Program-made: the position numbers and the translations under genes
Part shown: piece after piece, positions 84-14,049 of the stretch
Layout of the letters: the number at the start of each line of letters is the position of its first letter
Position numbering within the stretch: the stretch's first letter is position 1
Assembly: GCA_011525035.1 (NCBI GenBank)
Contig: WTIZ01000055.1
Span: 1-34,081 of the forward strand
Direction: 5' to 3'
DNA length: 34,081 nt
Origin: Cryomorphaceae bacterium
GTDB lineage: Bacteria > Bacteroidota > Bacteroidia > Flavobacteriales > Schleiferiaceae
Notes under the pieces: generated by a model
Database searches by the model: none
Told to the model about the DNA's origin: nothing
What the model saw: the letters and a program-made list of their open reading frames with translations, nothing else

Positions 84-309
84 TTAATTAAGAGAACGCT
101 TTTGTCTAAGTCAACCCGCTAAGCAACCCAATCGGCCGCGGAGGGCATTTCGCCCAATAGCGCTGACATAGCTAGTCAAATATAGGCTTTTTTAACCGAA
201 GGTTCAATTCCCACCTCAGGACTATATCGTGATGTTCATTGGCACTGTTGATATACATCTATGAAGCGCATTTTGATCTGATTTACGCCTCCAGTGATCG
301 CGTTAGTAT

Positions 310-686
310 TGTTCGGAATATTCCGAACGCACGTTTGGAACCACGAATAATTCTAAAACCTCAATGTTTTTAGTATTTTCGTTATAGAATCAAAATAGAA
401 ATTCGATCTCAAAGTAAAGAAAGGTAATGGATTCGGCCGCCAGACTCTGCGGCGGAGAGGAAGGGAATCGAACCCTCGGAGATTTTGTATTTTACCGTTG
501 TCATGAGTTTTTAGTCCTTCTCTCAAAGCCTTATAAACATAGGGCTTAACGATTTTATGTGCAATTTTTTGGTTGGTTAATAATTTACCGAACACTTGGT
601 TTTCACCGATTATTAGGTATTGAATGAACCTCATATGTGTTGGAATTACACGTGATTCCAAACGTGTGTTCGGTAAATACCGAACA
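310..686. mobile_element. 377-base MITE-like element with 36-base palindromic terminal inverted repeats
   Basis: The left end (310-345) and the reverse complement of the right end (651-686) match at 31 of 36 positions, with weaker similarity for about a dozen more bases inward. Both ends start TGTTCGG. Each end contains its own palindrome: GTTCGGAATATTCCGAAC (311-328, perfect) and TGTTCGGTAAATACCGAACA (667-686, two central mismatches). A third copy of the motif, ATTTACCGAACAC, lies inside at 583-595 as an exact 13-base inverted copy of 666-678. The interior holds a tRNA-Ser 3' fragment. No clear target-site duplication was found. It could instead be a cluster of operator sites, or two facing-away ends of insertion sequences. 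Confidence 0.5.
452..477 (-). pseudogene. tRNA-Ser 3' fragment (T-arm and acceptor strand)
   Basis: On the minus strand this reads as a well-paired T-arm with a TTCGATT loop, followed by the acceptor 3' strand CCTCTCC, a G discriminator and CCG. It resembles the 3' ends of both tRNA-Ser genes in the window. The matching 5' acceptor strand and the rest of the tRNA are missing, so it cannot be a working tRNA. The good T-arm pairing suggests it is younger, or better preserved, than the copy at 35-83. A GC-rich hairpin-like stretch (434-455) lies directly beyond its 3' end. Confidence 0.6.
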
Positions 687-742
687 TTTTGCCTTACAGT
701 AGCAGGCCTTCATGTTTGAATTTGAACTTTTAAATTCTAAAT

Positions 743-2053
743 ATGATGCATGGTAATTCAAAGTATCCATTAGAGCTCAAATTTGCCGTTTGTTGCGGTG
801 AGGAGCTGACGCACTTTTCAAAAAGTGACATTCGCAAAATTCCAAGAGCAACGCTTTCTGAATGGCGAAAGACACCCATTTCAAAATTTGTTAACCAATT
901 CGAAAATGGAGCAGAGCATCCAACGGTGATTAAATATCTATCTCGACGCAATGACGAATTGGAGCGTAGTAAGCAAGCTATAGACTCCTATATGACGTTC
1001 GTAAGTTTCATAAAGGATGCTATGGGAGTCAAGCCATTTACTCGAATGTTAAGTGAGAATAAGGAAAGATTCGTGGAAGTGGTTGAGGGGCTTGAAGGGT
1101 TGGTCACACAACAGTATTTTCTTGAGCATGCTGGTATTTCCAGAAATAGATATTGGGGATGGAAGAGTATTCTGGAGATGAATTGTTCCTTAACGGCTGA
1201 TAAAATCTGCGCTCGACGAACCCCAAATAAAATAAGGGATGCTGAACGACAGTTGTGTCGGCAGCTAGTGATAGCCGGTGGTGAGAATAAGAATGTTATT
1301 TATGCGCATGCCATTCGAAAGGGCCAAATAGCTATGGGGCGAGGTTCATTCTATAACATCGTGCAAGATTTAACCACCACGAAGCAAATGAAAACCTACA
1401 AGCCACGAGCCATTAAAATCAGAGCTAAAAATGTTCATGATATCTGGCATGCTGATGTTTCAATTATAAAAACCGTCTATGGTGAAAAGTGGTATTTGTA
1501 TTGCATAGTAGATAATAAGTCTAGAGGTATTGTGAATTGGCGATTAACCAATACTCTTAGGAAGTCTATATCAGCCGATGTGTTGAGAGAAGCGTTTTTA
1601 AAACATAATGCAGATAAGCTCATTTACATGACAGATGGCGGTAGTGAGAACAAGAAAATTATGGAGACTGATCTGCTTTATATGTATTTTAAAGTGACTC
1701 ATTGGATCGCAGGGAAGAGTGTAATGGCCTCAAATTCTATGATAGAGCGAGTGTTTCACACTTTGAAGAATGAATTTGGTTCTGTTCACATTGCTAAAGA
1801 CGGACTACAGTTAAAGCAGATTCTCAGTTCGACGATCGAAGCTTACATGAATCGGCCACATTCCGCCCATGGAATTTACACTCCTTTAGAGGTTCTTGAA
1901 GGTAGAGATAACTGGCTTGATGTGAAGAAAGTCATTGCTGATGCCAAAAAGGAGAGGGTAGCAGCGAATAAGGTTGCTCGCTGCGAAAACTGTTCGTGCT
2001 CGGTAGAAGAACGCTGTAGTGAGGACGTTGGTGTTATGGAGCAGAGCTATTAA
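743..2053 (+). CDS. DDE (rve-type) transposase/integrase
   Basis: This 436-residue protein is a retroviral-integrase-fold transposase in the broad IS3/IS481-like group; I do not recognise the exact family. The N-terminal part (about 1-60) looks like a helix-turn-helix with a conserved Trp. The catalytic domain starts near residue 230 with WHADVS (first Asp), continues with TDGGSEN (second Asp), and ends with IERVFHTLKNEF (Glu), so all three acidic residues are present. The C-terminus is unusual: a Cys-rich C-x2-C-x-C-x6-C cluster that could bind zinc. The start is the first of two adjacent ATGs. No second transposase frame and no matching terminal inverted repeats immediately around the gene were found, so the element's borders are unclear. 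The frame is intact and could be active. Confidence 0.85.
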   Translation: MMHGNSKYPLELKFAVCCGEELTHFSKSDIRKIPRATLSEWRKTPISKFVNQFENGAEHPTVIKYLSRRNDELERSKQAIDSYMTFVSFIKDAMGVKPFTRMLSENKERFVEVVEGLEGLVTQQYFLEHAGISRNRYWGWKSILEMNCSLTADKICARRTPNKIRDAERQLCRQLVIAGGENKNVIYAHAIRKGQIAMGRGSFYNIVQDLTTTKQMKTYKPRAIKIRAKNVHDIWHADVSIIKTVYGEKWYLYCIVDNKSRGIVNWRLTNTLRKSISADVLREAFLKHNADKLIYMTDGGSENKKIMETDLLYMYFKVTHWIAGKSVMASNSMIERVFHTLKNEFGSVHIAKDGLQLKQILSSTIEAYMNRPHSAHGIYTPLEVLEGRDNWLDVKKVIADAKKERVAANKVARCENCSCSVEERCSEDVGVMEQSY

Positions 2054-2261: not shown

Positions 2262-2349
2262 TGGCGGAGAGAGAGGGATTCGAACCCCCGGTACCTCTCG
2301 GTACGCTGGTTTTCAAGACCAGTGCATTCGACCACTCTGCCATCTCTCC
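2262..2349 (-). tRNA. tRNA-Ser(UGA)
   Basis: A full cloverleaf can be folded on the minus strand. The acceptor strands are GGAGAGA and TCTCTCC with discriminator G and an encoded CCA. The anticodon stem CTGGT/ACCAG encloses loop CTTGAAA, giving anticodon UGA. There is a long variable arm, as expected for serine, and a T-arm with loop TTCGAAT. Length is 85 bases plus CCA. It reads UCN serine codons. Two damaged copies of its 3' part lie to the left (35-83 and 452-477), which suggests this gene has served as an integration target. Confidence 0.95.
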
Positions 2350-13948: not shown

Positions 13949-14035
13949 AGAGAGGTGCCTGAGTGGTTGAAAGGGCCCGCCTGGAAAGCTGGTATAGGTG
14001 CAAGCCTATCGAGGGTTCGAATCCCTTCCTCTCTG
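13949..14035 (+). tRNA. tRNA-Ser(GGA)
   Basis: Acceptor strands AGAGAGG (13949-13955) and CCTCTCT (14028-14034) pair perfectly with discriminator G. The anticodon loop CTGGAAA gives anticodon GGA, reading UCU and UCC. A long variable arm and a T-arm with loop TTCGAAT are present. Unlike the UGA gene, CCA is not encoded: the next bases are CAA. A hairpin terminator follows. Confidence 0.95.
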
Positions 14036-14049
14036 CAAAATTCATTAGG

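Follow-up and report, generated by a model that had tools for sequence, protein, structure and literature searches.

An apparent junction of two mobile modules, with a palindrome as candidate recombination site, beside tRNA-Ser in a Flavobacteriales genome

Is the 377-bp sequence with inverted ends that precedes a transposase-like gene in a Cryomorphaceae draft genome a mobile element in its own right? The window analyzed here is the whole of contig C61 (34,081 bp) from a 2.0-Mb draft genome, and the sequence in question occupies positions 310 to 686. A preliminary description had presented it as one element with terminal inverted repeats, and the features that it reported in the letters themselves were all recovered. 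Positions 310-345 match 651-686 in inverted orientation at 31 of 36 bases (41 of 50 when extended to 310-359 and 637-686), whereas dinucleotide shuffling of the 377 bp, repeated 300 times, gave best inverted matches over 36 bases of 22.8 on average and of 28 at most. Each arm opens with a near-perfect 20-bp palindrome of the GTTCGG...CCGAAC type, TGTTCGGAATATTCCGAACG at 310-329 and TGTTCGGTAAATACCGAACA at 667-686, and these are the only two exact occurrences of GTTCGG-N6-CCGAAC in the 2.0-Mb genome. We call the 20-bp palindrome TGTTCGG-N6-CCGAACA, with its 7-6-7 layout, pal1; the spacers of the two window copies are unlike (AATATT and TAAATA). A weaker second dyad lies 6 bp past each pal1 (TGGAATCACGTGTAATTCCA at 641-660 on the right, a degenerate form at 336-355 on the left), the third copy of the motif at 583-595 is a half-site matching 666-678 at 13 of 13 bases in inverted orientation, and the tRNA fragment noticed in the interior is a tRNA-Ser 3' fragment on the minus strand (452-478), related to the complete tRNA-Ser(GGA) gene at 13949-14036.

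The unity of the element did not survive a search for copies. Neither its own genome nor any of 60 relatives yielded a second full-length copy of the 377 bp, let alone several dispersed ones with clean ends, and the two halves were found apart. In congeners among the 60 relatives, 310-451 or parts of it align at about 25 places (73-100% identity); the copies align within 310-451 and most go no further, many of the alignments ending near base 142 of the 377 bp. The DNA beyond ACTCTGCG, where many copies end, varies from one to the next. The right-hand part (465-686) occurs at five places in the 60 relatives with 94-98% identity, adjoining a homolog of the transposase gene in G007, G018, and G020 and lying just 3' of mnmE in G009 and G018. 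The copy number in the genome itself is perhaps understated because its mnmE contig ends 7 bp past the mnmE stop, where relatives carry a second right-hand unit. No target-site duplication was found in the flanks, which read ...GTTAGTAT before 310 and TTTTGCC... after 686. A MITE with terminal inverted repeats is thus rejected, since the halves occur separately and the full 377 bp only once, and the ends formerly taken as the termini of one element belong to different units, found apart and with other partners. Judged by these alignments, the 377 bp is the junction of two separate mobile modules that meet at 451/452, and the tRNA fragment is the boundary mark between two unrelated units.

On the left (plus strand), pal1 at 310-329 (TGTTCGG-AATATT-CCGAACG) forms a base-exact flank edge across copies, separating the upstream flank module U1 (36-309), which has 81-99% identity in contigs of G007, G002, and G009, from the downstream module D1 (330-451). 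In our map of T-arms, the start of U1 resembles a tRNA 3' end read on the minus strand (GGTTCAAAACC plus CTCTCTCTCCG, from 57 to about 36), and a second sequence resembling a T-arm lies inside it on the plus strand at 201-211; as seen from its copies in relatives, D1 terminates in a degenerate tRNA-3'-end-like sequence, the ACTCTGCG of 444-451 (plus strand). The T-arm-like sequence inside U1 (window 201-222) carries a rather fixed tail, GGTTCAATTCCCACCTCAGGA, in several copies, the nearest tRNA tail being that of Leu(CAA), with 10 of 13 positions alike. On the right, the fragment at 452-478, with its T-arm GGTTCGATTCC ("T-arm B") and tail CTTCCTCTCCGC, is 93% identical to the 3' end of the tRNA-Ser(GGA) of the window and ends the right-hand unit. 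Its downstream module, DR, reads on the minus strand from 666 down to 465 and includes the second dyad and the extra half-site; the right-hand pal1 (667-686, minus strand, TGTTCGG-TATTTA-CCGAACA) joins it to the transposase-side flank (687-742, plus strand), of which the first 25-31 bp or so are common to the copies 3' of mnmE. Beyond this flank lie a gene for a DDE (rve) transposase-like protein of 436 amino acids, IS3/IS481-like (743-2053, plus strand), and an intact tRNA-Ser(UGA) (2262-2349, minus strand, by ARAGORN and Rfam), the anchor of the array, which adjoins the DDE gene also in G001, G009, G018, G020, G023, and G024. An open reading frame at 353-661 on the minus strand is not favored as a gene: its frame crosses the module junction, and its internal ATG past the palindrome is lost in several relatives.

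How, then, do modules come to be joined at pal1? We grouped the flanks of 29 pal1 copies by similarity into upstream and downstream classes. In 225 pairs with a common downstream class and different upstream classes, identity is 0.27-0.34 up to the base preceding pal1, and it passes from 0.31 over the last 5 bases before pal1 to 0.98 over its first 5. Both U2 and U4, two of the upstream classes, are found with D1 and with D2 downstream, giving all four combinations. Through pal1, the flank aaaaattcaagccag... is connected to D1 (L052 and L119), to the transposase-side flank that in the window leads into DR (L102), and to the U2 flank (L116), with homology beginning each time at the first base beyond pal1. 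The joints in L102 and L116 are upstream-to-upstream, a product that orientation-free recombination would be expected to yield because pal1 is nearly symmetric. L102 and L103, the same locus in related genomes, are 98.6% identical over 1,490 bp, and their alignment stops at the last base of pal1 (12155), beyond which L103 has the usual downstream module and L102 the aaaaattcaagccag... flank. Assembly chimeras are possible but unlikely here, because the DNA shared at the upstream-to-upstream joints is 20 bp only, less than the 55-bp overlap of contig ends in G009. Mixed flanks also surround a second variant, TGTACGG-N6-CCGTACA. Taken at the level of sequence, the joints look like products of an orientation-free recombination site, at which a candidate enzyme would cut and rejoin. 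All the data are draft contigs, mostly metagenome derived and many ending inside arrays, and they revealed neither circles nor excision products nor an empty pal1 site; viral contigs and phages gave no match to the palindrome or to the window. The TGTACGG...CCGTACA form was also noted at position 1670 of L190, 162 of L191, and 3485 of L195 (loci of G009, G017, and G011), where the flanks are partly re-sorted; G011 has no DDE homolog.

Palindromes of this kind might instead be operators or terminator-like signals that regulate the DDE gene and the module genes, in which case the mosaic flanks would have nothing to do with recombination. Such a role would suit the position of pal1, which lies 57 bp ahead of the DDE start codon and also precedes several module genes, but no fittingly placed gene is found at the copies 3' of mnmE or at the upstream-to-upstream joints, and base-exact re-assortment would be left unexplained. 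Operators conserved in place had been foreseen as the alternative to a mobile element, and the sites proved to be dispersed, with neighbors that differ between species; we regard regulation as very improbable.

The suggestion that the palindromes are recognized by a DNA-moving enzyme fared better, although not as the ends of a single element: besides the base-exact joints of recurring flanks, it gains from the DDE gene lying so close by and from palindrome variants that are specific to DDE lineages. Three diverged lineages of the protein (40-47% amino acid identity) each have their own pal1 variant upstream, with an outward T-arm 153-192 bp beyond (192 bp in the window lineage; for the other two, 183 bp at about 40% identity and 153 bp at 47%); in a truncated copy in G103 the distance is 129 bp. 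Among the congeners searched, the protein was found only in those that also carry arm-like sequences of the pal1 kind. D238, D298, and E335 are invariant in six homologs (alignment A1), and the residue seven places past the catalytic E335 is K342. The rve DDE core and the match to the NCBIfam IS3 model (E values of 7e-24 to 6e-35 in four lineages) liken the protein to IS3/IS481 transposases; it differs from them in scores below the curated Pfam and NCBIfam cut-offs for the IS3 and IS481 models (84.8 bits for the IS3 family against a cut-off of 160) and in having no paired ends and no duplication. To our knowledge, IS3-like DDE enzymes do not normally carry out conservative exchange of flanks. 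Tyrosine recombinases are encoded in array units (L045, L061, L112, and L117) and at tRNA-Ser in L144, and none lies beside pal1 in the units examined. Most tyrosine recombinases do not tolerate a spacer mismatch between sites, and one acting at pal1 would be awkward because the two window spacers differ. We infer an enzyme behind the joints, with two candidates at pal1: the DDE protein, which is adjacent and IS3-like and the main suspect, or a tyrosine recombinase from the array.

Homologs of the DDE protein (E value of 1e-50 or lower) were found in 20 of 395 Bacteroidia genomes. An outward T-arm with a full stem lies within 500 bp at 2 of the 20 distant-homolog loci (0.05 expected), in L211 some 90 bp separate a perfect 20-bp palindrome, TGGTCCCAATATTGGGACCA, from a tRNA-Ser 3' end, and in L218/L219 the homology between two species stops at a tRNA-like tail. 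Rfam detected no tRNA fragments at these loci. Palindromes and T-arms are no more than partly borne out there, and as wider support they are suggestive only. Plasmids carry only relatives of the protein with less than 60% identity. A 92% identical DDE copy sits on a contig labeled Candidatus Rokubacteria (L037, OMJU01000129.1), which is probably a misbinned Flavobacteriales contig.

These loci also bear on whether the DDE gene belongs to an IS-like element, with pal1 and the tRNA-like end as terminal recognition sequences, 310-451 as a nonautonomous relative, and a transposase that inserts at, or carries, tRNA 3' ends. The association of a pal1 variant and a T-arm end with the DDE gene in all close lineages agrees with such an element, as do the two distant T-arms, the palindrome of L211, and a D1 end that interrupts a gene in G013 whose homolog is longer in G007. 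Nevertheless, no pal1-like sequence lies between 2053 and 2262, so that the transposase gene is not flanked by inverted ends, and around that interval neither a second inverted end nor a target duplication was found. In addition, most distant homologs have no clean T-arm or palindrome, and the tails past the T-loop vary with the neighboring DNA, as at a crossover and not as at the end of a transposon. On balance, we think an IS-like element quite unlikely.

The tRNA-like ends appear to form a second type of joint. The fragment in the interior had been put down to capture or to insertion next to a tRNA; it is not incidental, for a tRNA 3' end is found time and again at the terminus of such units. 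Only 14 of 36 palindromes, however, have a good T-arm within 300 bp on the expected side (6.9% at random positions), and the count is inflated by the many related copies among them. The module end in L055 is the 3' half of tRNA-Ala(GGC) with one difference over about 43 nucleotides. Identity among six copies of the right-hand end is 87-100% up to GGTTCGATTCC, beyond which they continue into different tRNA-like tails and different DNA. Past T-arm B, G009 has the 3' end of tRNA-Phe together with the DNA downstream of the intact tRNA-Phe gene (it is 55 bp of this tRNA-Phe type that three G009 contig ends have in common), and G007 has the tail of tRNA-Ser(UGA) followed by a tyrosine-recombinase element that in G002 directly follows tRNA-Ser(UGA) itself. 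The tail in the window closely resembles that of tRNA-Ser(GGA), with the D1 end abutting it directly. The simplest reading of these alignments would be that crossing over took place within the universal T-loop and that the module end stood in for an attachment site.

Much of this could also be expected from genomic islands stacked in tandem at a tRNA gene, the palindromes being arm-type sites of a tyrosine integrase near attR, the tRNA pieces displaced attR copies, and the flank combinations due to ordinary events, deletions and homologous exchange among the repeated ends of islands. Tandem islands are favored by tRNA 3' pieces that resemble displaced attR blocks, such as the tRNA-Ala half of L055, and by the tyrosine recombinases found in the array units and, with an arm-binding domain, at tRNA-Ser in G002. 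The Islander study reports tRNA fragments of this kind to be island endpoints (PMC4383910), which we count on the same side. As in such islands (tycheposons included), tRNA 3' fragments bound the units, some of which have integrase genes, cargo accumulates beside tRNA-Ser, and the intact tRNA-Ser at 2262-2349 and the fragment at 452-478 have the same orientation, both on the minus strand. However, arm sites would not give base-exact joints, and the 20-bp palindrome that is all the upstream-to-upstream joints share is short for homologous exchange. The modules of the window end tail to tail, whereas stacking gives a direct order, and the DDE unit does not begin at the tRNA 3' end itself but about 215 bp away; the approximately 215 bp after tRNA-Ser(UGA) are common to genomes without the DDE gene. 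Both the offset and the tail-to-tail ends weaken a plain tandem stack at tRNA-Ser. The array differs further from known islands in its second, palindromic joint site and in a tRNA-mimicking module end that is targeted by elements of several tRNA specificities. Tandem islands thus account for the tRNA ends and not for the pal1 joints, and we hold them to be unlikely, though the most serious of the alternatives.

The reading that we cautiously favor is a module junction in which pal1 would be a recombination site and the tRNA-like end a landing site. Each module would consist of pal1, usually with the second dyad, and of a tRNA 3' end some 75-190 bp further on, and two types of joint would assemble the array beside tRNA-Ser(UGA). 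In the first, a recombinase would cut and rejoin at pal1 as a site-specific recombination site, whose near symmetry would allow flanks to be exchanged in either orientation and modules to be shuffled. In the second, the tRNA-like end would receive integrative elements that normally enter tRNA genes, some of them encoding tyrosine integrases; with a crossover in the universal T-loop GGTTCGANTCC, they would attach to the module end and bring their own tRNA tail and cargo. In the window, the tRNA-like ends of the D1 module and of the transposase module would abut, so that the palindromes come to be inverted and give the look of an element with inverted repeats. The aligned copies show both joint types, their precision, and the re-assortment of modules. 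More tentatively, the arrays may represent a previously undescribed chromosomal module-shuffling system of a Flavobacteriales genus, combining palindromes recombined both ways, possibly by the covarying IS3-like DDE protein, with a shared docking end that mimics a tRNA. If this is true, a DDE-type protein could serve palindrome-based module shuffling outside the Xer and integron worlds, a decoy with the universal T-loop alone would collect elements of different tRNA specificity at one spot, and the breaks that such arrays cause in draft assemblies would be explained.

With moderate confidence, we compare the pal1 system of these Flavobacteriales to dif-module shuffling rather than to a MITE. 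The sites of dif modules have inverted arms and a spacer of 6 bp, and the 7-6-7 pal1 likewise has both and bounds flanks that are shuffled at it. A dif site has XerC and XerD arms of 11 bp; the pal1 arms, TGTTCGG/CCGAACA, are presumably unlike those of E. coli dif, and on this point the kinship is doubtful. The closest behavior described is in Acinetobacter plasmids, whose dif (pdif) modules are discrete stretches of DNA shuffled through short recombination sites (PMC13141974, PMC6449649). In contrast to them, pal1 sites occupy chromosomal arrays of Flavobacteriales, close to tRNA-Ser and mnmE. A parallel among transposases is the IS1202 family, of which ISAjo2 inserts 5 bp from sites resembling dif (PMC10132070); here, too, a DDE transposase gene, similar in size, stands next to a palindrome that looks like a recombination site. 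However, seven residues past the catalytic E, IS1202 transposases have Q (PMC10132070) and the window protein has K (K342 after E335), and inverted ends of 24-26 bp were not found here. Integron cassettes with ACTCTGCG as the crossover (arrays L041-L049) were considered and kept as an analogy only. Small genes do lie between repeats of the same orientation (L042, L045, L046, and L049), some starting just past the site, but there is no attC core, GTTRRRY is absent from the site, the gene adjacent to the array codes for the DDE protein and not for IntI, and the palindromic joint serves in either orientation. A search of a limited set of papers for comparable arrays in Flavobacteriales found nothing relevant.

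The region 3' of mnmE differs in sequence between most congeners, as if it were a second insertion hot spot (end of G000:C8; G009:C13 1-320, L108; G018:C6 1-170, L109). An array running from tRNA-Ser to mnmE was considered and set aside, the 141-amino-acid neighbor gene having only 41-48% matches outside G005/G016. The DNA attached at the tRNA-Phe/T-arm B joint (L118, G009:C34) contains a small HTH gene, a 691-amino-acid primase-like protein, and virus-like genes, and, judged by eye from the translations, has a prophage- or plasmid-like look. In G082:C2 (848000-887000, L100/L101), an island of about 18 kb adjoins tRNA-Ala(GGC); its metal-efflux genes match a block of a G002 array with 88-96% identity, and its inner ends carry palindrome pairs and tRNA-Ser 3' ends that face the cargo.
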